NCBI RefSeq assembly: GCF_001625215.2
Contig: NC_030385.2
Location: 35,923,598 to 35,987,597, forward strand
DNA: 64,000 nt
Source: Daucus carota subsp. sativus
Taxonomy: Eukaryota > Streptophyta > Magnoliopsida > Apiales > Apiaceae
Direction of reading: 5' to 3'
In this document: positions 519 to 61,706 of the stretch, piece by piece
Layout: each line of letters starts with the position of its first letter
Numbering within the stretch: position 1 is the first letter of the stretch
The notes under the pieces: model-generated
What the model was told of the DNA's origin: nothing
The model's input: only the letters and a program-made list of their open reading frames with translations
Databases searched by the model: none
Position numbers and translations under genes: made by a program

Positions 519-566
519 AACATATTACTAAAAATTTGCTCCAAAAAAAAACATATTACTAAAAAT
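519..566. repeat. Mini poly(A) insertion with 17-bp target duplication
   Basis: The 17-bp sequence AACATATTACTAAAAAT occurs at 519-535 and again, identical, at 550-566. The 14 bases between the copies are TTGCTCC followed by seven A. A short segment ending in poly(A) between two perfect direct repeats is what target-primed retroposition leaves. The insert is far too short to be a normal element. Simple replication slippage is the alternative. Confidence 0.55.
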
Positions 567-747
567 ATATGTTATTAGTGATATAACCGTTTGAAAATAT
601 TTTTGGAGGTATCCATCTCATTAATTATTTTTACAAAGAATATGACATGTAACATTTGGAAACTTTTTAAAAAAAACTCATTTGAAAACTATTTTGGGCA
701 CCAATTTGAGACCCAGGCATTCTGTCTTTAATCTACAAAAATATATA

Positions 748-982
748 CTCCCTCTGTCCCACAATACATGTCACTTTGATTTTTTTTCACGTAATTTGAG
801 GTGCAAATAAAATATATGTTTATATATTATTTTTCAAATTTTCTTTTTCTGAATAAAAATATGGATGTTATACTTTTATTCGGGAAAAAAAAAATTTGAA
901 AAATAATGTATAAAAATATTTTTTTATTTGCACATCAAATTACGTGCAAAAAGTCAAAGTGACATGTATTTTGGGACGGAGG
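748..982. mobile_element. Stowaway-like MITE
   Basis: A 235-bp AT-rich palindromic element. The left end CTCCCTCTGTCCCACAATAC pairs with the right end, which reads GTATTTTGGGACGGAGG on the plus strand. ACATGTCACTTTG and CAAAGTGACATGT continue the inverted repeat. It is flanked by TA at 746-747 and 983-984, the target duplication of Tc1/mariner (Stowaway) MITEs. It has no coding capacity. It lies about 200 bp beyond the stop codon of the VPS2 gene. A related, more decayed copy sits at 30039-30266. Confidence 0.8.
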
Positions 983-1182
983 TATTATAACTATTTACTA
1001 TAAGTTCCAGACAATACAACTCAACACCATTAAGTTTATGGGCTGAAAGAACCATCAGAAACGTCAAACCACATGTTGACATCAATAATTGAATAACTAT
1101 AGACATTGTACAATGATATGAAAACTTCAAACTAATAACAGAGCTCTGAGAATTGACTTTTGATGATTTATTAGACATCAGC

Positions 1183-3747
1183 TCAACGAAGGGCTGCCAA
1201 CCTTTTCTCCAGGTCATCAATACCAGAGCTGCGATTAAAGTGAAAGATTAGTAGTTCATCAAAAAGGAAAATTTTCAAGATTAGCAAACAACCCTGGTAA
1301 AAGACTAAAAGAGTGCTTGAAGAAATCGTTGATGAAGACCAAGTAAAGTTAGAGTTGCTGTAGAAAGAAATGGCCAGCAATTTAATAATGCCATCAAAAG
1401 GACATCACTGGTTTAGGAATTTTTTTTTTGAAAAAAATGTTATTAGTTGATAGTCTTAAAATATAGGTTCCTCGCATACACTTCTTTATAATCCTATGGT
1501 GCTAAGGATGAAGAGAGAAAGTTTGAAACACCTAGCTTTAATGTTAATAGTCATTATAAAGTAGCTTAGATGGAAAATATCATCGTCAGATTCTTATGCT
1601 TCATTTGGTTGAAGTGAATAGAATGAGCAAGGAATTGATGAAAAGTTGCAATCAAGATTAATGCTGGTTCAACATTAACAATTAAACTATTTAAAAAGAT
1701 AAGAATATACCTTTTAAGTTGTAACTTACAAATTACAGAATAACTTTAAGCAACAAACCATTTTTATGGTAAACTAAGTGCCCAGTACTATGAAGCATTT
1801 ATGGCATTACCATATATGATTTTATACAGTAAAAAGCAGCAAGTACCAACTTTGTTGATGTCAAATAGTGTATCTCTCTTTACCATTTAACAATATCTGA
1901 TTTGCTATAAAGCTATAAAAGAGTGTAGCGGTCATTCCTACTTTATTATTACTATATTTTACTGCTGGATGATGAATCCCCATCCTAATTATCTACTGGT
2001 TTGCTATAATGCTAATACCACGAGTGATGGTTTAAATGGTGAGCCTAGTCCAATACTACCTCCATTTAGACCTCCACCAATAATAATAAAAATCCAGAAC
2101 ATCCAGTTGGAAACTGATTTGGACAGATAAAGTGATTAACTTCTTTTTCTAATAAAATTTACAGGAAGGTGTGTGAGCACAGAGGGACACATATGGTGAG
2201 GTGCAGATATATGCCACAAGGCAGATGCATTAAAATGTACCTAGTAGCCTCAGTCTTCTTCCCTGCAATTTTTCCTTTTGGAGCTGCTGATAACTGTGAA
2301 GAGTTCAAATACAGCTCAGAAATTATTTTATCAGTGATAAAATTTTCTTATTTGTGTCATCTAACAAAAGAGCACTACAAAAACTAACCTGGGAGGCAAC
2401 ATCAACACCAATTTCATCTAAAACCTACACAAGTAAAATCAAATAATAGAGTAAGCAGCCGGTAGAGTGAAATATAATAAACTATACAATTTACTATTCA
2501 TAAATTCTTTTGGTCCGGTGGATGCATTCTTTTAGAGCATCTTCAATAGGGGTTGCCAAGAAAGTTGCCAACCATTAACAAGTCATCATTATATATTAAT
2601 TTCCACTTGTGAAATTCAACTGAAAAATAAAGAACTGCTGAAATCACCTGGTTTGTCAGCTCTTCAGTTTCCTCTTCAGCCTCGTCATTATCCAAAGAAT
2701 CATCTATTGCTTCTGACATCATTTCAGTCTGCATGTAGACATTCAAGAATGAGATGTGATAATGCTCAAGTGCAAAATCGAAAAACAAGAATATACGTTA
2801 ATATTGTGGGTATAGAAAGAAAAATCTTACAGTCATATCCATTTGCGCTGATTGCTTTTGGAATTCACGTATCACCTTCGCCTGCTTTGCAGGGTCCATT
2901 TGCTGTGAAAAAAGACAAATAAACATAACACTTATGAAAGCAGGAAACTCAAAGATACTGCTACGTCATTTTACACTTCTAAAACCTGTTTCTTGTAACT
3001 TCAATCAAGATAAGTCAACATTTCTTTCCTTCTTCAATTCCCAATATGAAATAGAATCATACTTGATACAAAAAACATCCTTGTATTACTGGAAAAGATT
3101 AATAAAGCAATATATAACCTTATTCATCGCAGACATTGCCTTGCTAGCACCTTTCATGCCAACAGCTACTGAAGAGTGTGCAGACATTGCCTGTAACCAG
3201 GAATTATCTTTCTTAGAAATGTCCTAGATGTACAAAATATAAAAAGTCGAAATAATACATTTTACAATTGAAAGCGTTTCTAAAGCTTGCCTGAGTGTGA
3301 GTTGCTATGCCTCTCATTTGAGCTCGACTACTTTGCAAGTTGGCTATTTGTTGTCTAAGCCTGATCAACTGACGAGCTAATATTTTTGTTGCTCCCTGTA
3401 GAACGTAAAAGCAAATGATAATACACCAAGATAGCAAAGTGCAGCACAGCTACTTTAAATATTGATATCTGATATCAATAAATTTAACTATATACTATGT
3501 GCATCCAAATACATAACCTACCTCATTTCCCTGTTTAGCAGTTCTCTTTATCTCAGCAACAAGCTTTTTTTCCTGAAATTACATCTAAAGTATAAATATA
3601 CTCTGTTTTGAATAAAAAAACCAATTAACATGTGACCTCGCACAGCTACAGCATATAACACCTTTAACCAGCTTAGATGACAGAAATCATTTTGTAGATG
3701 TGATGAATTTAATATGTGTATAGGCTCTTCTTTTTTCTTTTTTTTCT

Positions 3748-3780
<33 letters not shown>

Positions 3781-5490
3781 GATACCCCCCTACTTAATTT
3801 ACTCTTGGTAGCAAGATTGTGGAAGTGGAAAGGTTGTTTGTGGTGAATGTTCAAAGGGCTACGATAACTAGAAGATAGGTACGAGGGATCGTTGGGGTCC
3901 ATCCCTGTGCATAGTTTATAGACATATAATTGTCTCTCTTCTCCTTTCCTGCTCTGCAAGAGGTATCATGTTCTACGCATGTAAATATGAGAATCATTCT
4001 TTATATGCTGCCTGTTGGTTGTTATAGCATGTTGGCTGCTGGGTATCTTTCTATCTTAGAGAAGGTCCATCAGAGAGATGCATATGTGGCTGTAAGAATT
4101 ACGCCAAAAAGTCTATTCCCTTTGGGTTACAAGCACCATAACTGAATAGACCACCCATCCACAGGATTTTTTTGCACTACATGGAGACATATAAGTCTTC
4201 TACTTGAGATAAAAAAAAAAAATATTCATAGTTTAGGGATAACTTAAATTATATTTACATTTTTGTTGACAGATGGTTTTGACCCGAGAGTTTTTGTTGA
4301 TACACACAAAAAACAAATACTCATAATTATTATAGTGGAAGTTACAGAAGTCAATTGTTCATGTCAGATGCGAGTTCATACTAGCAGAACCTCAGACACG
4401 AGGTATTATTTTTTTGGTCAGGCATGAGGTGTGGTTAACATGATTGAACATATACGATACAAAGAAAGATTAACATACTTCTGACTGCAAGGCAGTAATT
4501 TCCTTCTCTATCCCTGAGAGATGAAAAAAAAAGGGAGTAAATTTTAATATAGCACAGCAAATCTAGCGGAGGGCTAGATGATAGCAAATATAGCATAAAA
4601 AATAATATCCATTTTTCCAGCTTTATAATTAGTCCCAATAAGTTTTTCTTTAAGTCACTGTGTGCATTAGGGTACATGCAAAGACTTATAAATTGTCTTT
4701 GGAATCAAGTAATTGACCCAAAACGTGATCTCAAAGTCTAAGGCAAAATTCTGCACACGTGGGAAAAATTTACAAAAGCTGAAATGAGCAATAATGCAAT
4801 ATTAAGCATGAATCATGGTGGAAAGCTTTCAAATTAAAGATTGAGATGAACGTATAATGAATATCACCTCCTTGGATTTGTCTAACCAATCCTCATTTGA
4901 GTAGCTATTTGTCACTGTCTCACTGATCACAAATATATGTCATGCATGGCATTCTACTAAACAAACATTTATCTGCGCTTGCAAGCAGTCAAACTTTATA
5001 ATCATAAAGAAGGAACAAAGTGCACACAACCTTGGTCACACATTTTTAGTCCACAACCGAATTAAGATTTTGGTAATTGTAAAAGAACAATTTCAGTTTT
5101 GTCGAAAAGGCCGACAACATAACAGCAGCCAACAGTTTATTGAATGGCCAATACACGCCTTACTTTTTTAAACTGACTAATTCAGTTTATCATTATAAAC
5201 ATTAGTGAAATTTGCTACAGACAACAATAATATATTGAAAAAAAATGGAATTATAAACTTAAATTGATGATCATCAATTCATCATAAACTAAAAAGGCAA
5301 GATAAGATAAGTACCTCTGGTAGCATTGGTCATCTCTCGTTTACTCTCTCGAAGCGCCTCTGTAATCATCAAAATCAATATTCAAAATACGATTATCATG
5401 ACAATTATAAACTCAACACTATCTACTGATTGAGCTGCGATTAAAAAGAATCGAACCTTTGGCGGTGGGTTTTTTGGTGAATATGTTCAT
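1183..5490 (-). CDS. VPS2: ESCRT-III subunit VPS2 (VPS2.2/VPS2.3 type, CHMP2 homolog)
   Basis: Eleven coding exons: 5490-5457, 5359-5315, 4513-4479, 3572-3522, 3395-3291, 3190-3119, 2902-2831, 2728-2648, 2424-2389, 2293-2241 and 1228-1183. Together they give 209 aa, the usual length. The protein starts MNIFTKKPTAK, like Arabidopsis VPS2.2/2.3 rather than VPS2.1. It has the basic N-terminal Snf7 helices (KILARQLIRLRQQIANL), an acidic stretch (DNDEAEEETEELTNQ), and a C-terminal MIM1 tail DDLEKRLAALR that would bind the MIT domain of the VPS4 ATPase. By family knowledge it is a filament subunit for multivesicular body sorting on endosomes. All splice phases agree. One intron (3190-3291) has a GC instead of a GT donor. 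The intron between exons 3 and 4 holds a 31-base G run. Confidence 0.93.
3749..3779. repeat. Uninterrupted G31 homopolymer
   Basis: There are 31 consecutive G on the plus strand, so C31 in the VPS2 transcript, inside the intron between exons 3 and 4. It is preceded by a T/C-rich stretch and followed by GATAC plus a run of C. Such runs can form G-quadruplexes and are hard to sequence, so the exact length may be an artefact. The proline-rich reading frame across it is not a gene. Confidence 0.9.
4392..4430. repeat. Possible decayed mini-insertion with 13-bp repeat
   Basis: TCAGACACGAGGT at 4392-4404 and TCAGGCATGAGGT at 4418-4430 match at 11 of 13 positions. They flank a 13-base T-rich insert, ATTATTTTTTTGG. 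It has the same architecture as the better examples in this window but is weaker. It lies in a VPS2 intron. Confidence 0.3.
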
Positions 5491-6009
5491 GATTAGTATT
5501 GTTCGTGATGATGATGATCAACTAGGATTTGATCTTGTTGTTTGCTTGAAATATGCAATGATTTGTGTAAATATAAATATGTATGTAGAGGTGTAAGTAT
5601 ACACAATTGACTTGGGGGTTCGAATCAGCTGCGATTTTTGTATGGGTCGGTCAGCTCATTGCCTGGTACCATCCCCGATGATGGGATAAAATGACACGCG
5701 GTTCAGCGAATTTATAATGGGCTCTCCTTGGGAAAAACAATAAGAAAATAAGAATTCATTTAGAAAAAGTGTTTTACTATATTTAGTACTAGTGAAAAAT
5801 TAAGGACTTATTTCAAAAAGTAATATAATTTTACGTATTTTTATTCGGAATAATCCATTACTTTTAAAAAATAAAATTATCTAAACAATCTCAACATTAT
5901 TATTATTTTAGATACCATAAACAGAATATAAAATCAAGTTATATATTGTACATATAGTTATTAGAGTTTTGAAGTCTATGTATGAATATTTCATTTTCAT
6001 CTAATCTAA

Positions 6010-6058
6010 TTGTTTGCAAGTCTTGGCAAAAAAAAATAAAAAATTGTCTGCGAGTATT
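6010..6058. repeat. Older mini poly(A) insertion with degenerate 15-bp repeat
   Basis: TTGTTTGCAAGTCTT at 6010-6024 and TTGTCTGCGAGTATT at 6044-6058 match at 12 of 15 positions. They flank GGC followed by an A-rich tail. The layout matches the other poly(A) scars here. The mismatches suggest greater age. Confidence 0.4.
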
Positions 6059-7813: not shown

Positions 7814-7843
7814 TCTCTCTCTCTCTCTCTCTCTCCCTCTCTC
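7814..7843 (+). repeat. CT microsatellite in 5' leader of PP2A-B''
   Basis: A nearly pure (CT)n tract about 160-190 bp upstream of the ATG of the PP2A-B'' gene. CT/GA repeats near plant transcription starts are known binding sites for GAGA-binding BPC factors. Whether this one functions that way is inference. Confidence 0.7.
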
Positions 7844-8002
7844 GATCGAATAGATTCTTATATTCGACTCGTCTCGAATTTTGAAGAATTCCAGCTAGTA
7901 TTTGACAATTCAATCAGCTGAGACTTGTTTTTAGTCATTGATTTTGAGATCTAGGGTTTTGAATTGAGTAGCTATTATATTCAATTGTGCGCGTGTGTAT
8001 AT

Positions 8003-11000
8003 ATGGTTGTGATGGAAATGGATATAGCGAGGGATGTTACGGATTTGGACCCGGAGTTGTTGCAGCTGCCAGAGGTGTCTCCTCTGGCGCTCAAAACAAG
8101 TCCTCAAATTGCCGAGGAGCTCTTTGGACAGTGGTTGTCGTTACCGGACACCGGTAGACTGGTATAATCTTTCACGCGATGTTGTATATGTTTTTGAATT
8201 ATATGTTTCAATACTTTTTTATTGTTGTATATGCTTTTGGACTATATGTTATGGCATTTAATAGCAGTGAAATTTGTGTGATGTAGTGACGTTAGTTTAG
8301 AGAAGTAGTAGATACTAGTAATTTGGCAGAATTGATTGGAAGTATGTTGTTTATACTAAAGGAGAATATTGCTAGAATTCACATGTAAAAGAGTCGATAC
8401 CTTGTGAAATGAAATATCGTAGAAATTTATGAAATTGTTCGGAACTTGACCATGTGCAGCTTGCAGCTTTGTGCCTTTGTCTAATTCTTAAGTGTTTGTT
8501 GGATGATTTATATTTTCTTTTTTGGTAGTTTAAAACGTTGTTGTTGATTAAAGTTGTTTTATCTTGAAGTTACTTAACCGCAACTAACATGTTCCTTTTC
8601 CTCAATTAATTGCTGTATATTAATGATTGCACATGATGTTGTATTAGTGAATTTTCTTGCGTTTTCCATGGACATTATATTGCAAATGTTGGGTAATTTA
8701 TATTGATAGACAAGGAGTAGGAACAAGTAGTTCATTTAATCCTTTTCATTAAGAGGAATTACTGATAGCATTTGAACTTGTTGCTTGTGATGGGCTGTAC
8801 CAATGTAAGCGGACACTTGCATGCTGTATGATATAATTATCGTCCCCAGTTTATCTTGTATTGTTGTTCTCTTCTGTCAATGCATTTTGGCACGTAATTG
8901 TGAATGTATACCTGAGTGTCAAAACTATGCTAATGAAGTTGACTATAAAACTAGTACAGTCAGATGGAGATATGAACCCAAATCAAGTAACAATTTATGT
9001 TTAGTATCTCCCCCAATTTTCGCCTTGCCAACTTTTGTGTTGCAACCAGTCTTAGTCTAAAGCTCTTGTATTTCATGTTCCCTAAGGTAAAATCATTAAT
9101 AGATGATGCAAAAACGGGCACCAGTTTTGGTGCGTCAGGGAACTCCACCTCTACAAATGCTTCTGGGATTAGTCCATTGCCTTCTCTCTTCCCTGCTGCT
9201 AATACGCCTCCACTTTCACCAAGAAGTGCTGTAGGTTCTCCTCGAACTATGAAGCAGAGGGCCAGTTTTTCTTCGTTGGGTTCTCCGCTAAAATTGGTCA
9301 AGGAAAATGTGCGGGAAGTCATACCACAGGTTTGAATTAAATCACTTCCCTCTGTATGCACTTCATAATATATTTCTGTATTTGTACATTCAAAATTCAA
9401 GAGAGTGCGAGAGACAGAATTTTTTTCAATCAACCTTAAGTCTTTAAAGCATCATTCCTGTCTTTTTCATGATTCTTCTTGCCAGAGTCAGAAACTGACT
9501 TTAAAACCATGTTTTTGTTTGTTTTGTACTTGCAGTTTTATTTCCAAGATGGTCCTCCTCCATCAGAGGAGCTAAGAGTACAGTGCAATTCTAGAGTTGA
9601 TGAAATTTTTAACAGAAATATGGATGGTTTACAAGTAAATGGTATATTCCTTTTCCTTCTCATTTCTTTTTTTTTTTTTGGTATATCATCTCATCATATG
9701 ATCTACAGCCAAAGAAAGGATAGGAAACTCTGACATAGGATCAAATGTTTTTTTAAATGCAGAGTTCAAAACTGTCACCAAGGATATATGTAAACTACCC
9801 TCTTTCCTTTCCACCACACTTTTCTTAAAGATCGACACCAACTGCACAGGGCTAGTAACCAGGTACTGGTTTTATTTCCATCAAAGTTAATATGTGATTT
9901 AATATCTATACCCTATCGACCTGATATATGTATGCTTCTCCAATTTATGCTTTAGACACGAGTCACATGTCACTTTTTATAAAGGGTTGTAACTTGTGAC
10001 TGATGAAGAGCTTATAAATGCCCTCATTCACCATAAATATATAAATATATTTGGTTTAGTTTTTGCCTTTCCCAATGCAAAATTTTGAAAGAACAATATA
10101 TTATGTCCCAGTCCTTGGAAAAACAATATATTATCTCTAGTCTTACTCTTACATTACTGCTTCTGCTACAAAATATGAAAAAAGCTGTCTTGTACAATCT
10201 ATTTTGTTTAATATTAAAGCTCAAAAATTATCTAGAAACTTTCTTTCTTGAAATGATAATCCACATTCACCATTTGGGAGCTGAATTCTTGGTTGGTTTT
10301 GCACGAAGTTATTATTTTTCTTATCTTTTGTAGAGATGCATTTATTAAATACTGGGTTGAAAGCAAAATGATAACAATGGATGTAGCTACACAAATATAC
10401 AAAATCCTAAAGCAACCAGACTGCAAATACCTTACTCAGGTTTGTTACCATTATTTTCTATCCCTGATTCACTGGGTAATTTTTCATTCAAGGATGCTGC
10501 TGCTTGTTTAACTATTTCATCTAATACCAGAATATCACATCTTTTATACAGGCTGACTTTAGACCTGCTCTTAAAGAGCTTTTGGCTACCCATCCAGGAT
10601 TGGAATTCTTGCAGAATACTCCGGAATTTCAGGAAAGATACGGTATGCTCTCCGTGATTCGAGAATTTTGCAATTGACGTAACATAATATAGATCACACT
10701 ATTGATGCATCCCAATATCTCGGGAAATTTCAGTCCGTTAAAGTGTCATTCAGAATACAAATCTCACTTGAGTAGTTTATTTTCAGTGAATTTTGTTTGA
10801 AGTTATCTGAAACTCTTAAAGCCGGATATATTAGATGTACTTATTTGGGAATATTTTCTCTGGGTTATATCAATATTTTCTTCCGGCTCAGCTCATGTTA
10901 ATTTAAGACTTGGGATTTGAGAATCTCTTGCAAATTGTAGTTTGTGGTGCAATGCATTATGATAGCTATCTGTTTTGGTTATACACAGTGTTCTATAATA

Positions 11001-15372: not shown

Positions 15373-17802
15373 GTGATTGAGGTGAGTCTTGTACAAGAGC
15401 TTTTACTAGATTTTTGTACATTATGCTCTTTGGGGCCTAATTATACTGAAAGAGGTTTTTTTACTTTTATATGTACAATTGACAGTTAATTCTTGTTGAT
15501 GTTTAATGTAATAAAATAAAAAAAGAAACGGAACATTAAAAAAAGGTGGTTATTATAATGCCATCATATATGTTTATCGAGTGCGTGAACTTTAGCCCCC
15601 CAAAAATGCTAAAAAAGTGAGTGAACATGCTATGCATATAATTGCTCTTAAGTTTCTGGTGACAAGCTTTGCTAGCTTTGTAATTCTTATCGGCGAATTA
15701 TTTACCATCCAAGGCAAATGTGGAGTTTAGCTACTAGTGCAGTGGAATGTACACTTACATTGTGTGCTCTTGCATGGTAATATTTTTAGTGATAGTTTTT
15801 CATCATCGTGCAGCTGTGGATTACTTTTTTGGCACCACCCCTTAACTGGGGTTGATTGCTAATTTTCACGAATGGTACTCAAGTCGCTGGAAATCTGGGT
15901 TAATATATTCCATCTTTGGCCATGTCACCTGATGCTATTTGACCAAGTCTGAAAGGCTTTTATGGCTTTATGCTATTTACTGCAAAACAAAAGCTGCTTC
16001 TGGAGTATCAACCACATGTCATCTGGAAAAAAGAGTTTTTCCTTCGCTTGGCGATGATCGAGGCTCTTCCAGTAATGTCCGTGTGTTGTATACTTGTATC
16101 TCCTTTGCTTCTGCAGTGTTCAATTTGCCCCCCTTTTACTGTCACCATTCAATGCGGCGGGGGTGAGTTTCGATGGCCAAGTGTCGTGTAAACTTGCAGC
16201 TGTGTATGATTGTCTTTCTAGGAATAACATTTTCCCTGTACTCATAATTTTCTATATATATAACAGATATTCTATTTGGTCTTTTAAAAAATTTGGAAGT
16301 CTGATGTACGTGGAAAATTAGAGGTTTGATCAAATATATCATATAATTCTAGTTCCTGGTAGTTAGCCGATATGAATAGCAGTTTAGATTCGGAAAACTA
16401 GATTTAAAAAAATAACTTGCAAGAGGGCGCTTGGATTGTGAGTGACAATAAGAATCGGGCGTTTGGATTGTGAGTGACAATAAGAATTGTGAAGGGTATG
16501 TGAGAAAATTATCCGCATAGTTCTTATTTTTAACTTCTCAAAATATTTTATCGCTTACTATGTTCTGAACCCTGGTCACCTCTCTTCACAGCTCCTGTCG
16601 CTTTAATAGGCGAATAGCCCAACTCTTGGAACATACTAAAGCTCTAGGTGGCGAAGAGCCATCATTATAGTGCCAAACTTTTCTGTTGGTGTGAGCTCTC
16701 GGAAAGATCAGCCTGTTATCTATCTCAGAATAAATGTTATTCATTGAATGACGATCTTTTCACTCGACACTGTCGGATCACTAAGACCGACTTTCGTCCC
16801 TGCTCAATGGGTATTCTAAGGATAGTGCAAGTAATGATTTAGTGTTCAAGTTGGATTGAGGTTTCATTCCACGTCACAATTAATCCAAAACACCAACACA
16901 TAGATTTAAGTTTTCGATTTTCGTTAATCAGACACATTTATCATGAATCAGACGCTTTCCGATAAAATAGCAATCTAGTAAATAATTCTTAAAAAAAATT
17001 ACTTGAATTATCTAGTCAAAAGAGCTACCCATCTTTCGATTAAAGATGGTTTCAGACTAGGTTTTGGGCTACCTAAGCTACTTGACTAATCAAATTAAAA
17101 CGGCTTCAATCAACTAGTTAAAATGAATATTCATCGGTTTAAAAATATATATAAGACATTTTCAAATTACTTGTTTTTTTGATTAAAGATGGTTTCACAA
17201 AACAAAAAATAATTTCGAATCCTCTATCCTCTATTTCAATAAAAGATGATTTTGGACTTCCTGATTTTTTGATAAAAGAAACATCTGTCATTTTTTTAAA
17301 CTCTTTCGATAAAAGACATCTGAAAATATTCTATTGTTTATGTGTCCTTTTTCTAAGGACTCTTTTGATCAAACTCACAAAAATCCAGTGATCTATAATT
17401 AGCATAGCAAGTGAATAAATTGAAGTCCTAGATTCTCGATTATCGTCTAGTTAATATTAACCCCATCTTAGAAATTCCATTAATTACCAATAAAAAGATG
17501 AAACAGTTGCCTTCATACCATTTTTAAGGAGGTAATTAATCTTCACCTCGTGTGAGGGGGGTTGAACTGCAATTCTTTGGTGCAGTTTACCCTTCTTCCT
17601 CATTTTCACCACCCTACACAAATAATATATGCAGTAAAAACAATATTCATACACCAAATTTCCCTTTATCCTCTTGAGAAGTTTCACCTTATGACCTTAA
17701 ACTTTTAATCTGACCATGATCTGAGGGAGGTGAAATTGAAAGTTCCCTCCCAATTTAACTGGAAGGGGTAACTTTCAGCCAAGAGGATTTCATTTGAGGA
17801 GA
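15373..17802. other. Intergenic region / 3' UTR of PP2A-B'' and promoter of RIC gene
   Basis: No supported gene. The first several hundred bases probably belong to the PP2A-B'' 3' UTR. A short tandem duplication (TTGGATTGTGAGTGACAATA) occurs twice at about 16430-16490. The motif GATTAAAGATGGTTTCA and variants recur several times between 17030 and 17310; this is unexplained low-complexity similarity. The stretch before 17803 must hold the promoter of the CRIB-motif gene. Confidence 0.6.
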
Positions 17803-19689: not shown

Positions 19690-21796
19690 AATTTGGTCAC
19701 TTTCATATTGATTAGGATTCTATAGTCATTGTTATATTATTATTAAAAGACTTTTATATTCAATAAAATTTTATTATTAAAGACCTCAACATTCATTAGG
19801 ACAATGAAAGACTTTATTATTAGAATTTTATTATTAAAAACTTCAATATTGATTAGGACAATGTAATATAAATTTTTTATTTAATAACAACAATCATTAT
19901 AGAATTATGAAAAGATTTTCATATTATTAGGATTTTATACTTATTATTATACATTTTAGGATTTTATAATTATTATTATACAATTATGAAAAGACTTATA
20001 TATTGATTCGGATTTTATTAATAAAAATTTCAATATTGGTTAAGATTATTATACTACTATAAAAAGACTTCTATGGTGTTTAGGATTTTGTAATATAACA
20101 TTTATCTTATTCGCACAGTTAAATCGTTAACCATTTAACTTATGAAACAGTTCTATAAATTCATATAAAAAATTGGATATCATCATATTAATTTTTATTT
20201 AACAATTATTACTATTATCAAAAAACTTCTATATTTGACAGGATTTTGTATTATAACAATTATCTTACTAATAAAAATATGTTACCAACAAAATTATTTG
20301 TTTTAATTTTTTAAAACTCAAATAATTTAATATACATAACAACTCTATAAATCTTATATCATGCTTCAGATTTCAAACAAGAAGTTCATATTGATATTAA
20401 TATAATATCCTATCAATAGAATAATAATGTCAACAAAATTTTTCATTTTAATTTTTAAAACTCATATAATTTAATTTACGAAATAAATTTATAAAACTTC
20501 TATCGTATTTCAGAATTAAAAAAACAAGATTCAATATTGATACCAAAGTACCAAAAAAATTGGTCATATATTTTTTAATAATAATAATTAACATCATTCA
20601 ATGTTTTTCAGAAGATTGCGATAAAGACGAATAAGGCGGTGGTAACACTGACTTGATGGAAACATAAAAAAAAAAAGTCATTGTCCATATTGCAACATAT
20701 AATAAAAGAATCAAAACTCTAGACATACGTCAAATATTCGTTTTAATTTTTAAAATTCATACACTTTAATTTACGAAACAAATTTATAAAACTTCTATCC
20801 TATTTCAGAATTAAAATAAACAAGATTCAATATTGATACCAAAGTGCCAAAAAACTTGGTCATTTATTTTTTAATAATAATTGTTATTATCATTCAGTGT
20901 TTTTTAGAAGATTGCGATAAAAACGAATAAGGCGGTGGTAACACTGACTTGACAAATGGAAACTTAAAAAAAATAAGTCATTGTCCATATTGCCACATAT
21001 AATAAAAGAACCGAAACTCTAGACATACGTCAAATATTCGTTTTAATTTTTAAAACTCATACAATTTAATTTACGAAACAAATCTATAAAATTTCAATCA
21101 TATTTCAGAATTAAAATAAACAAGATTCGATATTGATACCAAAGTACCCAAAAACTTGGTCATTTATTTTTTAATAATAATAATTATTATCATTTAGTAT
21201 TTTTCAGAAGATTGCGATAAAGACGAATAAGGCGGTGGCAACACTGACTTGACAAATGGAAACTCAAAGAAAATGAAGTCATTATACATATTGCAACATA
21301 TAATAAAAGAACCGAAACTCTAGACATACGTCAAGATATTTGATATCAAATCATTATTCTACTTATGAGTTATATTTTAGAACATATATAGTGTTCAGTG
21401 ATTTATAATATAATTGTTTTATCTTTTGATTGCAACGATTATGTTGTAGAACATAACCTGCAAATTGTCAGATGTTTACAAATATTGTAGACTAAAAAAA
21501 TTAAAATTGAAACGAGTAGAGTATTTTTAAATAATTTTGGACAACAATACTCTTATTTTGTGGACTCTATAGAACAGGGACCCATATTATTATGAAATAA
21601 ATTTAAAGTATGATCAAATTTTAATATATAGAAAGTCTTATATTAAAAAACAATAATTTAAATATCATTTAAAAACAATAATTTAAATAGGTATAATAAA
21701 AATATAATAATGAAATTAAAAAAATATTTTTCTTCCAATAAATAATAAATTTTAAAATTTTATTTAAACCCGTGCTTGGCACGGGCTATCAACTAG
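19690..21796 (+). mobile_element. Helitron-like element, 3' end clear, 5' end not located
   Basis: The right end is diagnostic. A hairpin CCCGTGC-TTG-GCACGGG (21769-21785) is followed 7 bases later by CTAG (21793-21796) and then a host T, the classical Helitron 3' terminus. The interior is extremely AT-rich. It contains degenerate 60-90 bp repeats (AGGATTTTAT..TTATTATTATAC..GAAAAGACTT) at about 19700-20260, then the 3-copy 300-bp array. No RepHel transposase is encoded, so it is non-autonomous. The left boundary given is only a guess; I found no clear 5' TC terminus. Confidence 0.65.
20436..21336. repeat. Three-copy tandem array, about 300-bp unit
   Basis: Units begin at about 20436, 20737 and 21037. 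Each holds GAAGATTGCGATAAA.ACGAA (20611, 20907, 21207) followed by TAAGGCGGTGG.AACACTGAC. Each ends in AAAGAA.C.AAACTCTAGACA (about 20705, 21005, 21306). The copies are highly similar. A more diverged relative precedes them at about 20290-20400. The array lies inside the Helitron-like element. No conserved reading frame is seen. Confidence 0.9.
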
Positions 21797-22086: not shown

Positions 22087-25000
22087 ATGGCGATGGCGGG
22101 TTTGTATCGGCGCCTTCTTCCATCTCCTCCCGCCATCGATTTTGCATCTTCCCAAGGCAAAGTATGTATCTATACATATATCTATAACTCTCTTATATGC
22201 ATACAATTCAACTCATAGCTCATAATTTCAACTTATCTATATAATTAGGTTTTTTTTATTGTGGTTTTAATTTATGATATGTTATATTTTAATTGCTTGT
22301 TGAACACTGATATAGTAGAGATAGTTCTGCGTTCTATGTGCTTGAATGTTTGATTATGCGGTTAATTGAGCTTCTTTGATTTTTGCAAAGGGAACATGTA
22401 AAATTTGAGAGTGTTAGTGGTAACTATGAAGCTAATTTGTGTTTTCGGGATGTTGAAGTTGCTATGCGCAATGTGTGTGTTTATTTGTAAGTCTGATGTT
22501 CTCGGTGTGTGAAGTTTAGTTATGAATATTATTAATAAGGGATGATTATTTTTTGGAATTGAAGAAACTCTTTGTGGAAGCTATTCAAGGGGGGACGATG
22601 GAAGGTTTCTTTAAGTTGATCTCGTATTTTCAGACGCAATCAGAACCTGCGTATTGTGGTTTAGCTAGCCTTGCTATGGTTTTGAATGCCCTAGCTGTTG
22701 ATCCTGGTAGAAAATGGAAAGGTGACTTTAACTTTTCCTTGGTGAAGCTGTTGATGTTCATTTCTACACTGTCTTGGAGTACAGCATATACCTATGCTGT
22801 CTATAGATTCTTATACATCTCTTTGTCGTCTATATATTTGTATGTGTGTTCTGCAAGCATACTAGATGTGGCACTTAAACTCGACATTGTAATTTGTGTT
22901 GATCCTACCTATAGGTGCACCACATCCAATGTAGCTCAGACAATTAACTAGGTAGTTCTAGAAACAAATTCTACATGACTAAATATTATTTTGAACAATA
23001 AACTTCAAAGATTTACATATCTTGTGTTTATTGGTACATATTTTGCAAAAGTTGTTACCTGTATTAATGTATGGATCTGTACTCCTTGAGGATAATATAT
23101 ATTTCTTTATATTTATTCAAGAAAATTATATGCTAAATCTTAAAAGAACTATATATAGTGTGCAAGTCCTTTTCTTATGTAAAGAAGTGTTTGCCAGGAG
23201 TCTGAAGGTTATCATTTAGTAAGCTGTATCTCTACATTGAACGAATTCATCTATATTGTGTCTATAGAGCATTTTAAGTTATATGATCAGATCTTTTGTG
23301 GTAAATTTCAAAATTTTAGCCCAGAAAACTTATAGAAGTTTGTTTTCTAATAAACGTACTTCAAGTTTCCAGCCTAAAAAAAAGGTGCTGCCTATGTCAC
23401 GTATGGTGCCTTGTGTCTACATCCCTTCTTTCTTTCTTTTTTTGACAAAAGTCTACATCACTTCTATACGTGGAGAAAGCGTGATCCCTAGTTGAGACAC
23501 TGGTTTATAAATCTGAGGTAGTTTGTACAATGAGGGAAAGAGACATAAACTATTCATATACTCATATCTGACGATTGCAGGCATGCTACCTCATTTTAAT
23601 TAGTTTGGTCATTTCAGCAAAAAAATTGTTTTTCCAAATTTTTATGCTAACTACTTATTGAGTATCCTCTATTTGTACACTTTGTTGCATGACTATGCAC
23701 AGGACCTTGGAGGTGGTTTGATGAATCTATGTTGGACTGTTGCGAACCTCTGGACAAAGTTAAAACTAAAGGCATATCCTTTGATAAGGTTGTGTGCTTA
23801 GCTCAATGTGCTGGCACAAAAGTTAAAGCTTTTCATACAAATCATAGTACCCTTGACGACTTCCGTAAGTATGTCAAGGCATGTTCTGCTTCAGAAGATT
23901 GCCATGTAATCTCTTCTTATCATCGGGGAACATTTAAACAGGTAGGTTTCATGATTTGGTCTAAATCTTATTTAGTCCTTGGTTTTATTTCCGCACCTGA
24001 TATCTAATAATTTGTTGGTAAACTATGTGGGCAGAAGATAATAATGTTCATAATAGGTTAGTTAATATTTATTCTCGTGTTTACAGTTTTAAATATTAAA
24101 AAAGATGAACAATAATTATTAAAAGTTAAAAGAGGGAAAAGGAAGAAGTTTGGTGTGCTTGATAATGCAAAAGTATTGTTGTGCAGTTTCTAAGTATAGG
24201 TACACTTGGAAACTCAGTGGTTCACTCTGAAGGGTGTTTAAGGCACAGCATTAGTGAGCCTCATGAAGGACAGCAATGTTTTACTCGCTCTCAATGTATT
24301 GTAAAGTAGTTAATGTGAGCAATGACAAGCCATTCAACAAGAATCTCTACTTGTACTTAAGAAATACTAGAAATGCTAACTAATGGAAGAGAAGGACAAA
24401 ATTTTTGAATAGGAAAGACGTGCTTTTAATACTGATGGAGTTAGACTTGGCAGAATAGTTTTTCTCATGTGATTTTCTTGCAGACGGGAGAAGGCCACTT
24501 TTCACCTATTGGTGGCTATCATGCTGGAAGGGATATGGCACTAATACTAGATGTTGCACGGTTTAAGTATCCTCCTCACTGGGTCCCACTTAGCCTCCTT
24601 TGGGATGCCATGAATACCTTAGATCAATCAAGTGGACATCATAGAGGGTATCGGATTCTCTGATTATTCATAGTTCAGATATCATTTACATTTTCTTGAT
24701 TAAAAACCTTATGAAAGAGGAAGTTACGCTAGTCTATTTATCTAGATGTTATTCCCCCTAATGATTGAGCATTATCTGTTACAATTGAGGTTAACTACTG
24801 GTATTTGGCAGGCTAATTATCTCTCTTATTTCACCATCAGATTATGGTCTTATTTACTTTCATCGGTGTGTGTGTGTGACTGTGTGTATATGGATATGGA
24901 TCTGTTCTTAATCATATTGGAAGTTTGACAAGTTTTTTGTTTTTCCAGGTTCATGTTAATTTCTAGGCTTCACAGATCGCCGGCACTACTTTATACCTTG

Positions 25001-31327: not shown

Positions 31328-31379
31328 AGATATTCTTTTGACTTTTTTTTTTTTTGAATCAAAGATATTCTTTTGACTT
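31328..31379. repeat. Mini poly(A) insertion (minus orientation) with perfect 17-bp duplication
   Basis: AGATATTCTTTTGACTT occurs identically at 31328-31344 and 31363-31379. The insert of about 18 bases is a T run followed by GAATCAA, that is TTGATTC plus poly(A) on the minus strand. It lies about 220 bp upstream of the FAO start codon. Confidence 0.6.
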
Positions 31380-35578: not shown

Positions 35579-37478
35579 TCAACTAGCAGATGCTTTGACT
35601 GCCTTTTCAGCGGCATCATCCAGATCCTCTGCTGTGATCAATGTCATACCACTTTCCTGAAGACATCAAGAAACTTGTATTAATTTGTTTCTCTCTCTTT
35701 TTTTTACCCAACATACACTTGTGGAAGCTTCCGTTATATTATCTCGTACAAAATGATGATTTTACCTTTAGAATCCTCTTTCCTTGGTCTACATTGGTGC
35801 CCTCAAGACGAACAACAACTGGTACCTTCAAAGCAACCTTTAACAAAAATACACCATTCAGGCAGTACAAGTGAGTGATCAAGATTACAGATTTACATTT
35901 TACAATAATATAAAGCATGCTGAATAAGTACAGAGAGACAATTGTCTTGTGTAACTTCTAAATAATGTGTGCTTGTGAAGCAATACAACATTTAGAAATT
36001 GCCATTCATATGAAAATAAGTAGCAATTCACAGGAGCACGGTTGGATAGCTCAGTGGTAAAGAGCTTATCCTTTGTCGTCCCAGGTCCTGGGTTCGACCC
36101 TGGCTCACCCCGAGAGTTTCGTAGAACAGATACTCATTTGTAAGGCTATAAGCCATATTTGTCAAAAAAAAAAAAAGTAGCAATTCACAGCCAACTTGAT
36201 CAACATTTATTAAAAATAACGAGTTTACGAACACATTAGTAAACAGATAGACTTCAAGTACATAATTCAGAAATATATCACTACTTACAACGTCCACCAA
36301 GATCAATCTCATTTAACACACACCTGTTTGGCAGCGTTGACGATTCCGCTTGCTATAACATCACACTTCATTATTCCTCCAAATATATTGACCAAAATTG
36401 CTTTGACCTTGTCGTCTGCTGTCAAAATTTTAAAAGCCTCCACAACCTACCAAAACAATTAGAATGGTCAAGATAAAATAGATACGGCTGGAGAAAACAG
36501 AAATAACAGAAAATAAATAGAGGAAAACTTGAAATGGCCCGTAGAATACAATAGAATGGATGCAATAATCTCGTCTCAACAGTACACGGGCACGGCTATG
36601 TCACATACTACTAAGCAAAAAGTACAAGTTACCTGGTTTTCGGAAGCATTCCCTCCTACATCCAAAAAATTGGCAGGGGTTCCACCATGCAACTTAATTA
36701 TATCCATGGTTGCCATAGCCAGACCAGCACCATTCACCATGCAGCCGATTTGTCCATCTAAACCAATGTAGTTCAAATCTGCTTTTGCAGCAGCAACCTT
36801 CCAGAAGAAACAAAAGTCTCATTAGTTCATGACAGTCGATACAAATTTCCTAAAGCTATTTAAGTGGGGAACGCAGAAGTTAGTTTTACAATATTGCACA
36901 AAGCTCACACTGCCATATTGCACACAGCTTAAACTGCTAATACCTCTCTTAAAAATCTATTTCCCAATTCAATCATAGATTAACAGCACATGAGATACAT
37001 ATGTACAAGGGATCCTAACACCATACCTCGCGGGGATCCTCCTGAGATGGATCACGAAGAGCGAAAATCTCTTTCTGTCGGAAGTAAGCATTGTCATCAA
37101 AGTTCAGTTTGGCATCGGCAGCAACCAACTTGTTATCTGAAGTCTCAGCAAGGGGATTAATCTGTCAGGGAGATACCGGCTTGGTCATGTAAAATTGTGA
37201 ACAATAATATAGGTTTCATATCAATTATAACTATTAAGAATAAACGCATACTTCCAACATTGTGCAGTCACAATCACAAAAGAGTTTATATAACTTTTTC
37301 ACTTGCTCCATTGATTCCTTTTTGTCAGAGACTTTGGGAGCCAAGCCATCAACAACTTTGGCAGCATCTTCATCTGTGATTCCTTTGAAAACATCAATCG
37401 GAACCTGCATAGCAAATGGCAGATATAGCTCATTTTCAAGATAAATCAACAACAAAAGAGTATACCTGTGTGTGTGTG

Positions 37479-40458: not shown

Positions 40459-40700
40459 AGTTTGATTTAGGAGTTAGTGAGATTTGAGAATAACGAATTG
40501 AGAACCCTAGAAGACGACGATCTACAAATATATGCGTACAGATCCTATATGTATTTTTTGATTTCTTTAGCCTTTATAATCAAGAGAACATCTATACCTA
40601 AATTATTCATTTATTTGACTATTCATTCAAATTAAAAAAATGAGAGCGTTCAGTCAAATTGTAAATGCTGAATAAATGTGTATTTTCTTTCTATATGAAT

Positions 40701-40745
40701 AAAAAAAGATTTTAGTTTTATCAAAAAAAAAAAAGATTTTAGTTT
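40701..40745. repeat. Mini poly(A) insertion with short direct repeat
   Basis: GATTTTAGTTT preceded by A's occurs at 40701-40718 and 40730-40745. TATC plus a run of A separates the copies. The TATCAAAA resembles the SINE tail TTGTCAAAA. The repeat is A-rich, so the exact ends are ambiguous. Confidence 0.4.
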
Positions 40746-41591: not shown

Positions 41592-41632
41592 AATAGTCCA
41601 GGTAAAAAAAAAAAAAGGAATAGTCCAGGTAA
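41592..41632. repeat. Poly(A)-only insertion with perfect 14-bp repeat
   Basis: AATAGTCCAGGTAA is identical at 41592-41605 and 41619-41632. Only A's and a final GG lie between. It is the simplest case of the recurring scar type in this window. Confidence 0.5.
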
Positions 41633-47414: not shown

Positions 47415-47498
47415 ATGAATAATAAGAGTCAGATCAAGGGACAGGGAGAAAAAGGAATAAGTAGAAGACTCAGGACATTGATGAATTGCTGGCAATAA
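47415..47498 (+). CDS. Upstream in-frame ORF (27 codons) before NPGR2
   Basis: An ATG at 47415 opens a 27-codon frame, basic near its end (GEKGISRRLRTLMNCWQ). It stops at TAA 47496-47498 and is in frame with the NPGR2 ATG at 47502, with only one codon (AAT) between. It is either an upstream ORF that would reduce NPGR2 translation or allow reinitiation, or the old N-terminus of NPGR2 cut off by a nonsense change. I recall that NPGR proteins have a basic N-terminal extension of similar size, which favours the second view. A base error is also possible. Confidence 0.5.
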   Translation: MNNKSQIKGQGEKGISRRLRTLMNCWQ

Positions 47499-47501
47499 AA
47501 T

Positions 47502-50500
47502 ATGAATGAAATGTTCCCTTCTTCCGAGTCACTAGCTACAAAGGATTATTCAACGAGTGTCTACTCGTCTCGAGCTGGTGAGACTGAACAGAAGTTAGAT
47601 ACTGGAAATATCGAGGAAGCTGAATTATCTTTGCGGGAGAATGGTTCTTTAAATTACGAGGTGCTTTCTCTGTTTAATTGTGCTCAATATTTTCTTTACT
47701 ACATGAGCCTTTTGTTGAGTAAAATTTCCAATCTTTAGAATTCTGTTTTTCATTACTTCCCCAAGTTTCTTTCAAATTTTGTTTTTCCACTTCTTGACTT
47801 CTGGCTTTGTTCGTCATTATCTTTTGTTTTAAATGTTCATTTATTGGCATCTTTTGTAGGAAGCCAGAGCTTTACTAGGAAGGTTTGAGTATCAAAAGGG
47901 AAACATAGAAGCTGCACTACATGTGTTCGAAGGGATAGATGTTGCTGCAATCACACCAAAAATGATAGCCACTCTTGGTGCAAGAGGAGAGCCTCATAAA
48001 AGACGTTCACGTAGTTTTGCAACCCAGCCAATGTCCTTACATTCTGTGAGCTTGCTCCTGGAAGCTGTCTTTCTGAGAACAAAATCGTTACAAATCTTAG
48101 GGAGGTATAAAGGTAATTTCTGATTGTAATCCACCATCTTATCAAGGATCACTGTTTCTTGTGAAGTGTTGTGGGAAGTTATTATGATTGTAATATGATT
48201 ATTACCTATATTTGGAGAAATAACCAAGCATGATGCCTGAAAAGTTGTGATAGTCCACTAACTTTGAATTGTTTTCTGAATTTAGCTTTGTCTAATTCGA
48301 AGTCATTCTTCTTTAGGTTCTCTTGTAAGCCTGAAGAGTTTGTGAATAATCAAGTACAAAGATTGGTTTCTTTCACATTTAAGTTATACTTTTGTCTACT
48401 GCTAATATATAGTAATATCGGATTATCAATGGCAAACCATATTCACTTGCTGTTGCAGAATTTTGGCAGAAATATAGCTACTACACATAATATATATATA
48501 AATTTTATGCTATTCATTTACTATTAAATGTAAAATTGAACTTGAAAGTGTAACGCGGGCCTTAGCATGTCAATAAAAGCTCAGTTTTAAGTTCTAAAAA
48601 TGCAACATATCTCATGGAGCACAATAGCACACGCCGTCCCAATTAGTTTACATACTGAGGGTTGCTTTTTTTGTGTGTAATGTTGGAATGATTGAGACAA
48701 AAAAATTTCCTCCGTGTGAACCTTCGTTTTTCAATATATGCATGACTTTATAACATTTTCATGGTTCATTGTTGCCGAGGGCAGGAATTAACTCAAAATA
48801 TTTGGGCCAGGTAAACCTTCATTTGAAGGTTACTTCACTCTTGCTATGCATGATTTCATAGTGCTCTCTTCGGTTTATTGTTAGCAAAAACAGGAACTTG
48901 AGTCAACCTTTTTGGACCAGGAAACCCGTCATTGAATTCAAGGGCTAACGCGGCTCTTGCTCTTTTTTGCAGAAGCTGCTCAATCATGCACGGTTATTCT
49001 GGACATAGTTGAATCGTCATTACCCGGAGGTTTTCCTGAAAACTTTGGCGCTGAATTTAAATTGCAGGGCACCCTTACTAATGCAGTCGAGTTGCTTCCA
49101 GAACTATGGAAACTTTCTGATTCTCCTCGTGAAGCTATCTTGTCATATCGGCGGGCACTTCTCTTTCGGTGGAACCTAAATGCGGAAACTACAGCTAAGA
49201 TTCAAAAAAGATTTGCCATTTTTCTTTTATACAGTGGTGGAGAAGCTAGTCCCCCGACCCTTCGATCCCAAATGGATAGTTCGTTTGTACCTAAAAATAA
49301 CATGGAGGAGGCCATTCTTTTGCTAATGATTTTATCAAGGAAAGTATCCCTAAGATTAATTAAGTGGGACCCATCTATTCTGGATCACCTTCAATATGCT
49401 TTATCTCTCTGTGGAGGAGGAATGGATTTGGCTAATCAAATAGAAGAACTGCTTCCTGGGGTCATTGATCGAAAAGATATGTACTACACGCTAGCCCTCT
49501 GTTACCATGCAGAAAGAGATGATTTAGGTGCTTTAAATTTGTTGAACAAACTGTTGCATAGCAGCGAGGATCCAAATCACATGCCAGCATTATTGATGGC
49601 TTCCAAAATCTACAGCGAGAGCTGCAATTATGCGGACGGTACCAAATATGCCCTCAGAGCTTTGAAAAACTCAAAAGGCAGATGTGAGCTGATATTCGGT
49701 GTTGCCAACTCCTTCCTCGGCATTTCACTTGCAACACTATCTAGATCAGCTCTAACAGACTCTGAAAGAACTAAGACACAGTCCGAAGCACTCCAGTTCC
49801 TGGAAACAGCTGCGAGAATGACAAATCTAACCAATTCCAGTGTCATATATCATCTCAGTTTAGAGTATGCTGAGCAGAGGAAATTGGACGCTGCACTTCT
49901 ATATGCGAAGTCCCTGCTTAAATTAGGAGGCTCTAATATTTCATGGTGGCTATTGGTGGCTAGGATACTTTCTGCGCAAAAGCGACTTGATGATGCTGAA
50001 ACAATTGTCGATGCTGCACTAGAGCAGACACGGAAGTGGGATCAGGGAGAACTGTTGCGTACTAAAGCTAAACTCCAAATAGCACAGGGTAGATTAAAAA
50101 GTGCCATTGGAACATACACTCAGCTTCTTGCTGTTCTACAAATTCGTAGTAAAAGCTATGGATTTGAGAAACACCTTCATGAGGTAGGTCACTTCGTATA
50201 TAATGTGATAGTCCCATTATTTGGCCTTCTGCATTGTAGCTCCAAAATTTGTCAACATTAAGCCTATATTTGGATGTTCTTGGGCTTTCTAAATTCTCAG
50301 CCTTCTCCTCAACATTTCTTTGTCAATTTCATAATATTTTTTTTAATAGTTTTAACAGGTCATTGATCGTTGGGAAATATTCTGCTAATTACTTTTAGCA
50401 GTATATGTTTTCTTGTTACTACTTTGTAACTTTCTATGTACTGATTGAGCAGGACGCTGTAAATCGCATTAGGAGCTTAGAATTGGAGACATGGCACGAT

Positions 50501-60767: not shown

Positions 60768-60806
<39 letters not shown>

Positions 60807-61030
60807 GTTACTTTAGTGGAGTCGAGCCAGACCAAATCAAGAGGATTGAAATCAAGTGGAGAGAAAGGACAGTCCAAAATAGACCAAGCTCTGAGTTGGG
60901 TAGAAGCAAAGCCAGGTATAATGATCCCTGATAGCTTCCCGTAGTTTCCGGTCAGAACTCTACCGTTGACGGCGGTGCTGTGTAGAGTGCCGATGACAAG
61001 AAGACCCAAGAAAAGTAGCTGTATATTCAT
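52479..61030 (-). CDS. PSAT1: Phospholipid:sterol O-acyltransferase (LCAT/PDAT family)
   Basis: Fifteen exons: 61030-60812, 59773-59638, 59239-59095, 58402-58233, 58131-58055, 57536-57326, 57239-57065, 56776-56677, 55978-55884, 54864-54813, 54414-54343, 53489-53321, 52882-52778, 52712-52628 and 52560-52479. Phases agree and give 630 aa, like Arabidopsis PSAT1. A signal peptide or anchor (MNIQLLFLGLLVIGTLHSTA) is followed by GKLSGIIIPGFASTQLRAWS. The alpha/beta-hydrolase nucleophile is in VFAHSLGNNVFRYF (Ser about 187). Acid and His candidates are GDETVPYN (Asp about 458) and SEHDGSD. The lid has NPLTPWERPPLKNIFCIYG. By family knowledge it moves an acyl group from phospholipid (PE) to sterols at the ER, making sterol esters. 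The exon 7 donor is placed at AATAA|GTAAGT so that phase and homology agree. Confidence 0.95.
60646..60804. repeat. Long purine (GA/GGGA) tract in intron 1 of PSAT1
   Basis: About 160 bases of nearly uninterrupted G/A, ending in a pure (GA)n run of about 30 bases. In the transcript it is a (CT)n tract starting eight bases after the exon 1 donor (AAA|GTAACACCTCTCTC). The Ser/Leu/Pro and Glu/Arg reading frames over it are artefacts of the repeat. Confidence 0.9.
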
Positions 61031-61290
61031 CTGACTCTATCTATGGAAATCCTATCTTTCTATGTATCAAACAGTTTGGAGGCTGAATTCGTTAAAAAAC
61101 TTTCGGGTGCTGAAATTTAGAGTACGATGATCTTTCTGTAACAACAATTAATATTAATTATTGAGTTCTTGACCGCAGAATCATCATCATCTCACCAGTC
61201 ACCAATCACCATGCATATTAGGGAGTTGCAACTTTTTCTTGTTTCGTCAACTATGAAAAGTCAATTCCAGATTTATTCTTTAAAATAGTA

Positions 61291-61534
61291 CTCCCTCCCT
61301 TTCAATTTACATTTTCACTTTTAAGAAAATTTTTTGTTTCAAATTATTTGTCCACATCAACTTTCAATACAAATGTATATTTCCAAAGTCAATTCTACTC
61401 CACATATCTCTTATCTATATTTCCTAGATCAATCTCACTCCACATATTTTGATCATTTAATGCTATTAATTTGTAAACAAACATTTTTCTGTATGATTTT
61501 TTTAAAGTGGACATCTAATTTGAAACGGAGGGAG
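61291..61534. mobile_element. Stowaway-like MITE, second family
   Basis: It starts after TA at 61289-61290 with CTCCCTCCCTTTCAATTTAC and ends with TTTGAAACGGAGGGAG. The ends are inverted repeats. The right flanking TA is not preserved. Length is about 244 bp, non-coding, about 260 bp upstream of the PSAT1 start codon. Confidence 0.7.
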
Positions 61535-61656
61535 TCCATGACTACTTGTATAACATAATAGTGAATCTCAAACAACTTAACATATTTAAAAGTTTATTTA
61601 ATTATTCAGATCATATCATAATATGAGTTTTTTTTTAATGTTATTAACGTTTATAC

Positions 61657-61706
61657 TTAATTGTGTAATTTTATTTTTTTTGACAAATATGATTTAATTT
61701 TGTAAT
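61657..61706. repeat. Mini SINE-tail insertion (minus orientation) with 13-bp duplication
   Basis: TTAATTGTGTAAT at 61657-61669 and TTAATTTTGTAAT at 61694-61706 (12 of 13 match) flank a 24-base insert. The insert contains TTTTTTTGACAAATATG, the exact reverse complement of CATATTTGTCAAAAAAA, the 3' end of the SINE at 36034-36174. This is the strongest evidence that the mini-insertions derive from that SINE family. Confidence 0.65.

Follow-up and report, generated by a model that had tools for sequence, protein, structure and literature searches.

The window (the whole 64,000-nucleotide stretch analysed) carries short poly(A)-bearing insertion scars that very probably arose by abortive target-primed reverse transcription (TPRT). 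One source RNA would be the genome's own tRNA-type SINE, which terminates in CATATTTGTC(A)n. Only some of the scars can be assigned to this SINE.

The sequence-only reading had proposed five main loci and three weaker ones, each a direct repeat around a mostly poly(A) insert. On inspection of the sequence, all eight stretches read as described, and the five main loci were accepted. Direct reading also confirmed the three repeats said to be perfect, of 17 bp at 519, 17 bp at 31328 and 14 bp at 41592. Among the weaker loci, 6010 was retained as a weak scar with a 12/15 repeat. Locus 40701-40745 was rejected as a tandem repeat, since it overlaps an array of 27-bp units (40682-40744, 2.3 copies), and 4392-4430 was rejected with a repeat of 11/13 and a T run flush with neither copy. 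The corrected list is therefore five scars plus one weak scar, given here with one possible further scar:

519..566, plus strand: scar; perfect 17-bp duplication (519-535 / 550-566); insert TTGCTCC + A7 (536-549).
6010..6058, plus strand: weak scar; 15-bp duplication with 3 mismatches (12/15); insert GGC A9TA6 (6025-6043).
10092..10134, plus strand: possible further scar; perfect 13-bp repeat; insert GTCCCAGTCCTTGG + A3-5, a short A run.
23415..23465, minus strand: scar; 15-bp duplication, 14/15 match; insert TTTTGTC A7GAAAGAA (23430-23450).
31328..31379, minus strand: scar; perfect 17-bp duplication; insert TTGATTC + A11 (31345-31362); nick TT|AAGT.
41592..41632, plus strand: scar; perfect 14-bp duplication; insert A11GG (41606-41618).
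61657..61706, minus strand: scar; 13-bp duplication, 12/13 match; insert ATCATATTTGTC A8TAAA (61670-61693).

The orientation of 41592 is ambiguous because its insert is almost entirely A; if its duplication is taken as AGRAATAGTCCAGGTAA, with a nick at TT|AG, the locus would be a pure tail. Neither 61657 nor 6010 appeared in any short-insert scan list, and 23415 was missing from the 330-kb and mirror scans described below. Locus 61657 was accepted on its SINE end and 6010 on a by-eye reading.

The SINE itself is represented once in the window by a full-length copy:

36018-36190, plus strand: full-length tRNA-type SINE; perfect 16-bp duplication (36018-36033 / 36175-36190).

Its body (36034-36163) ends in CCATATTTGTC and is followed by an A tail. 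It contains an A box, TAGCTCAGTGG, and a B box, GGTTCGACC, with a combined pattern match at 36047. The family is dispersed in the 441 Mb genome: a first look gave 1004 candidates, and the 40 of these that were scored are 94-100% identical. Duplication scores were at least 12 in 25 of 30 fetched loci, and again in 25 with a slightly different set. By its internal boxes, dispersed copies, duplications and A tail, the element reads as a tRNA-derived SINE. A second candidate SINE, at L045:2990-3098, was discarded, its sole genome match being itself. In viral contigs, the SINE body pattern gave 0 matches and the tRNA-like head 2, whose printed stretches do not continue as the SINE.

The motif TTTGTC-A7 occurs at three sites in the window, namely the SINE, 23415 and 61657. 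Flush with the A tail, the insert at 23415 carries the SINE's 6 terminal bases, and that at 61657 carries the 10 terminal bases of the copy in the window, or 11 if a GTCATATTTGTC variant is taken instead. Both scars have a T before the duplication, an A at its start and a single mismatch, in 15 and 13 bp, respectively. With a flush 3' end, a duplication and a nick like those of full-length copies, the two sites have the make-up of severely 5'-truncated SINE copies. Overall, the SINE 3' end was found in these two window scars and in three others. Within the window, it is present in only two of the six accepted scars; 519, 31328, 41592 and 6010 lack it, having TTGCTCC, TTGATTC, no body and GGC instead. 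A separate family ending in TTTGATTC, suggested by two scars, was rejected, as TTTGATTC-A8 barely exceeded its control genome-wide (9 matches vs 5).

The geometry of the scars was compared with that of the SINE copies. The A run lay at the 3' repeat in 12 matches with inserts of 4-24 bases, as opposed to 4 in a mirror scan, some matches on both sides being tandem or MITE cases. Duplication lengths agreed between scars and full-length SINE copies, and A was the first base of the duplication in 15 of 17 scars, as it was in 25 of 25 SINE copies. Read strictly, a T preceded the duplication in 9 of 17 scars (otherwise 5 A and 3 C) vs 21 of 25 SINE copies. Thus, the nick motif is weaker at scars than at SINE copies. 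The base before the tail was C in 11 of 16 scars, a set of our own selection, vs 128 of 446 A7 runs (p 1e-3).

The low frequency of the preceding T is also what might be seen had the scars formed by double-strand break repair with filler, in which staggered ends are filled in and captured oligo(dA) or cDNA fragments are joined, a process that likewise leaves a short unique insert together with a duplication. Nevertheless, the 12-21 bp duplications, the A start in 15 of 17 scars and the 3'-flush tail equal those of SINE copies, and we consider filler repair improbable.

The number of repeats was evaluated against shuffled sequence (Markov orders 2, 4 and 5; 60 shuffles per order). The window contained 15 direct-repeat events (score at least 11, gap 5-35) vs 1.2-1.6 in shuffles. 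The supposition that poly(A)-bearing repeats would outnumber those of shuffled sequence was borne out: repeats whose insert held an A/T run of at least 7 numbered 5 (40701 included) vs 0.03-0.07 per shuffle. Given a repeat, A/T runs were enriched in the inserts (5 of 15 window events vs 0.6 expected, p ~2e-4). A larger scan covered 330 kb, made up of the window, 18 sampled 10-kb stretches and the flanks of 30 SINE loci, using a tandem filter under which the insert must not recur outside the repeats. Non-tandem events numbered 79, of which 16 had a run of at least 7; the shuffles (n=20) gave 1.5 and 0.05, respectively. Of these 79 events, 58 had no insert A/T run of at least 5, and short direct repeats of other kinds also far exceeded the shuffled expectation. 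The shuffle excess alone does not identify retroposition, and was set aside as proof of it, because repeats without A are in excess as well.

These 58 events also speak for replication slippage or tandem duplication, by which the repeats would have formed with the poly(A) being incidental or later expanded; indeed, 40701 is such a case. Against this, the insert sequences passing the tandem filter are not repeated beyond the repeats, the A run is directional, SINE ends lie inside two of the six accepted window inserts, and, at the site described next, the insert and one of the two repeat copies are both absent from the empty paralogs. Slippage is on balance a shade less probable than filler repair as an origin of the scars.

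The empty sites belong to a scar outside the window:

L032:504-560: scar inside a repeat; 20-bp duplication, 17-base insert, tail CCTTGGC-A.

The weak window scar at 6010, which reads (CTT)GGC-A, resembles it. An empty site here should be 37 bases short, corresponding to the insert plus one duplication copy. We sorted the 29 listed paralogous places by arithmetic, the classification being our own, and 21 lacked 32-37 bases at the site. Specifically, 15 gave a separate match for each flank, with 34-37 bases missing in between (exactly 37 in 11), and 6 gave one continuous match that was 32-37 bases short. Two places aligned across the insert, being 2 and 5 bases short, two were 15 and 25 bases short, and four matched on one side only. 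Sequence alignment covered one filled and two empty places, and the empty ones carry a single copy of the duplicated 20 bp. The scar at L032:504-560 is accordingly read from these alignments as having arisen by insertion, because the paralogs lack the insert together with one duplication copy; the same observation refutes slippage at this locus. A 20-bp direct repeat can recombine, and the empty paralogs could in principle be deletion products of repeat-mediated recombination from an ancestral filled form; with 21 empty and 2 filled other places, the empty form being far commoner among those listed, this is very improbable. Among the matches listed, at most 40 scored candidates per list, no paralog spanned the site of a window scar (five scars, and 519 separately), and, among the paralogs listed, an empty site was found for no SINE-ended scar and no window scar.

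SINE-ended scars were then counted across the genome. TTTGTC-A9 without a match at the next base (BTTTGTC) occurred 489 times vs 39 for a reversed-pattern control; intact CATATTTGTC-A9 ends occurred 176 times vs 0. Of six BTTTGTC loci fetched, three were scars, one was MITE-like, one a poly(T) and one unclear. The estimate of scar abundance rests on this small sample, because three of the six were not clear scars. Longer SINE truncations made up four of eight fetched DCATATTTGTC-A7 loci, by our reading. Patterns with 5 kept bases gave 344 matches vs 85 in the control, and those with 7 gave 89 vs 2, but other repeats contribute to both counts (as seen for two ATTGTC/GTTGTC sites), and a CATTTGTC variant probably does too. 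Because of this mixing, it is the G-ended rows on which the peak at 6 bases depends.

Folding predicted a 4-bp hairpin near the tail at the SINE 3' end. The same stem was obtained from the full end and from a SINE slice lacking the last few 3' bases, whereas a variant end folds differently. There is little covariation: for two pairs, a single sequence each is changed on both sides, and three of the seven pairs predicted include broken cells. We hold it as a tentative possibility that an exact stop after TTTGTC, just short of the hairpin, has made SINE scars roughly as numerous as copies with an intact 3' end. The least probable alternative is that the SINE-ended scars are former longer copies whose bodies were deleted later: old SINE copies do decay and partly truncated ones are present, but a deletion stopping precisely at the 5' duplication should be rare, and in L060, L065 and 23415 the body fragment is adjacent to that duplication within a base.

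Under abortive TPRT, a LINE-encoded endonuclease would nick the target close to a T|A step (approximately TT|AAAA), and a bound RNA would then anneal through its A tail. The reverse transcriptase, presumably that of a LINE, would copy the tail and usually 3-11 more bases, and then stop. Second-strand cutting and repair would be completed normally, leaving some 10-24 inserted bases between the copies of a 12-21 bp duplication. The short inserts would reflect early termination rather than later deletion, and the predicted hairpin GGCU-AUA-AGCC, 9 bases before the tail, perhaps favours a stop after 6 bases. The earlier suggestion of TPRT is supported as to mechanism by the directional A run, the SINE ends, the duplication geometry and the L032 empty sites; as to the tail, most scars keep 3-11 source bases and so are more than a bare tail.

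Repeat annotation is likely to miss an insert of about 15 bases; should scars of this kind prove common, estimates of how often LINE-driven nicking and repair occur in plants would therefore be too low. Because the scars record the cut site and the extent of copying, the early step of TPRT can be measured using sequence data only. The scars are also a source of new poly(A) tracts in the genome. If the stop after TTTGTC is real, a large share of SINE integration attempts would fail at one template-determined pause, yet be repaired into the genome.

In the literature on tail-only or very short insertions and on plant SINEs, judged by titles and the opening of abstracts, nothing was recognised as this class. 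The scars share with 5'-truncated LINE and SINE insertions made by TPRT the target duplication, the A tail at the 3' copy, an endonuclease-like site and the element's 3' end; they differ in keeping only 3-11 source bases. Among the insertions that cause human disease, poly(A)-only cases consist of a tail with little or no body, like the scars here. In the portion of PMC4859970 available, such human insertions were not found. The short 3' L1 insertions of mouse (PMC11084082) are likewise very short 3' element fragments; they derive from a mammalian L1, and the abstract of that paper reports no length that could be set beside a 6-base body. According to the sections available, AnnoSINE starts from A/B boxes or homology and then checks for a duplication (PMC8825457), and a tool of this kind would presumably miss these scars. 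Plant tRNA-type SINEs, as described in the available parts of PMC3747384 and PMC2774510, have A/B boxes, an A tail and a duplication, and the scars are not full SINEs; the same excerpts propose poly(A) as a shared recognition feature in some plants. Finally, tailless retropseudogenes, so far as the available text of PMC5322556 describes them, are likewise duplication-flanked by-products of LINE retroposition, from many RNAs. They have no tail and mostly keep the 5' end, whereas the scars described here keep the tail and lose the rest.

All eight stretches listed from the sequence alone as scars (short direct repeats around tiny A-rich inserts) were present in the window. Such repeats were more frequent than in shuffled sequence: the window contained 5 repeats with an A/T run of at least 7 versus 0.03-0.07 in window shuffles, and 15 direct repeats with a 5-35-base gap versus 1.2-1.6. 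In 330 kb, there were 79 direct-repeat events, 16 of them with an A/T run of at least 7, versus 1.5 and 0.05 in shuffles. Four of the 16 were, in our reading, parts of repeats (two MITE-like ends and two tandem-like stretches), and 40701, which overlaps a tandem array, was among the other twelve. Scars 61657 and 6010, named by their window starts, were missing from every list from the short-insert direct-repeat scans; 23415 was picked up by three direct-repeat scans and missed by the 330-kb count and the strict 3'-flush scan. Repeats without poly(A) also exceeded the shuffles (58 of the 79 events in 330 kb), and features predicted by target-primed reverse transcription were therefore sought.

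The genome searched was 441 Mb in 11 contigs, of which the last two were 250 and 128 kb; the window lies on a 47.6 Mb contig. Judged by two protein types, the GMC oxidoreductase and the TPR protein listed below, it appears to be nuclear DNA of a plant. Other window features were as follows:

739-996, MITE-like inverted repeat, its end found again at many genome places
3749-3779, unusual run of 31 G, possibly an assembly artefact
16574-16720 (-), LSU rRNA match of bacterial type, probably inserted into the nuclear genome from an organelle
20442-21340, 300-bp unit, three copies in tandem
32850-34592, GMC oxidoreductase
48957-50261, TPR protein

Requiring the A run at the 3' repeat yielded 12 matches, with inserts of 4-24 bases, versus 4 for the mirror requirement in 244 kb (the window and 18 sampled stretches); some matches on either side are MITE cases or tandem repeats, and an insert of almost nothing but A can score both ways. 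Looser scans showed a weaker contrast: 16 versus 11 in the window and 44 versus 34 in 330 kb. The raw split of runs of at least 7 in 330 kb was 10 closer to the 3' repeat and 6 closer to the 5' repeat, the latter including the repeat-derived cases above and the pure-A insert.

A search for duplications that are flush with poly(A) and enclose longer inserts revealed a full-length tRNA-type SINE at window 36018-36190. Scar 61657 carries the same CATATTTGTC-A end as this SINE, and scar 23415 carries the SINE's last six bases; TTTGTC-A7 occurred in the window at exactly three sites, namely at both scars and in the SINE itself. Of 1004 first-look candidate relatives in the genome, 40 were scored, and 25 of 30 fetched SINE loci had a duplication score of at least 12. 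Of 25 SINE copies, 21 had a T before the duplication and all 25 had A as its first base. The corresponding counts for scars were 9 of 17 and 15 of 17, using a hand-typed list and a strict reading in which the boundary was not slid through A's; sliding would push the T count up. At L045:1420-1629, a SINE tail fragment of ~40 bases directly adjoins a near-full-length SINE, which suggests repeated insertion at one place. At L016:8373-8572, a 100-bp near-identical duplication holds a SINE tail beside a full SINE and mimics extra target duplications in scans.

Paralogs were searched using 11 scar loci as one joined query, plus 519 separately. One of these 12 loci, L032:504-560, lies in a multi-copy repeat. 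Its perfect 20-bp duplication surrounds CCTTGGC-A9-G, so an empty site should lack 37 bases. The matches listed included 29 other places: 15 had a two-piece match with 34-37 bases absent (exactly 37 in 11), 6 had a single-piece match 32-37 bases short, 2 aligned through the insert, 2 were short by 15 and 25 bases, and 4 were one-sided. One of these four spans query 1448-1585, starting inside the L016 piece, past its scar. The L032 scar aligned cleanly with two empty places as well as with a filled one. Among the matches listed, no site-spanning paralog was found for the other ten joined-query loci or for 519.

A source was found for the SINE-ended scars only, and none for those ending in TTGCTCC, TTGATTC, GGC, or pure A. 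In 330 kb, TTGGC preceded 3 of 447 A7 runs. Two of these are scars (6010 and L032:504), and the third has a 47-base insert flanked by a 12-bp repeat; a second source RNA with a TTGGC-A end is therefore possible. Separately, L045:2990-3098 holds a 75-base insert with a tRNA-like start and a 17-bp duplication; it matched only itself in the genome and is thus apparently a unique retroposed RNA.

BTTTGTC-A9, in which B (not A) mismatches the SINE, occurred at 489 genome sites (reversed control, 39), and intact CATATTTGTC-A9 at 176 (control, 0). The loci fetched for BTTTGTC and DCATATTTGTC came from contigs 1-3 and are non-random samples of the full lists. Three of six BTTTGTC loci were scars:

L060, 15-bp duplication
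L061, 12-bp duplication, one mismatch
L065, 13-bp duplication, one mismatch

The others were not clear scars: L062 was MITE-like, L063 was poly(T), and L064 was unclear.

The number of SINE bases kept was compared using only G-preceded rows, as variants were to be avoided, with letters counted by eye. For five kept bases (344 total; control, 85), G was found in 7 of the first 100 rows; for six (489 total; control, 39), in 27 of the first 100; for seven (control, 2), in 9 of 89; and for eight (control, 1), in 7 of 19. These counts suggest that kept bases peak at six. A predicted 4-bp hairpin ends nine bases upstream of the SINE tail; covariation support for it is thin, as two of its pairs each show a single sequence with both partners altered, and broken cells occur in two. 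Pausing just short of this predicted hairpin would be a plausible cause of the six-base stop.

Finally, four of eight fetched DCATATTTGTC-A7 loci read as SINE up to the end of the stretch, and four are 5'-truncated (L052, L053, L054, and L059), with a clear duplication at L054 only. In L054 (C1:40217029-40217186), a poly(T) block lies between the 5' duplication and the SINE body, resembling the twin-priming L1 cases described in PMC2837659.
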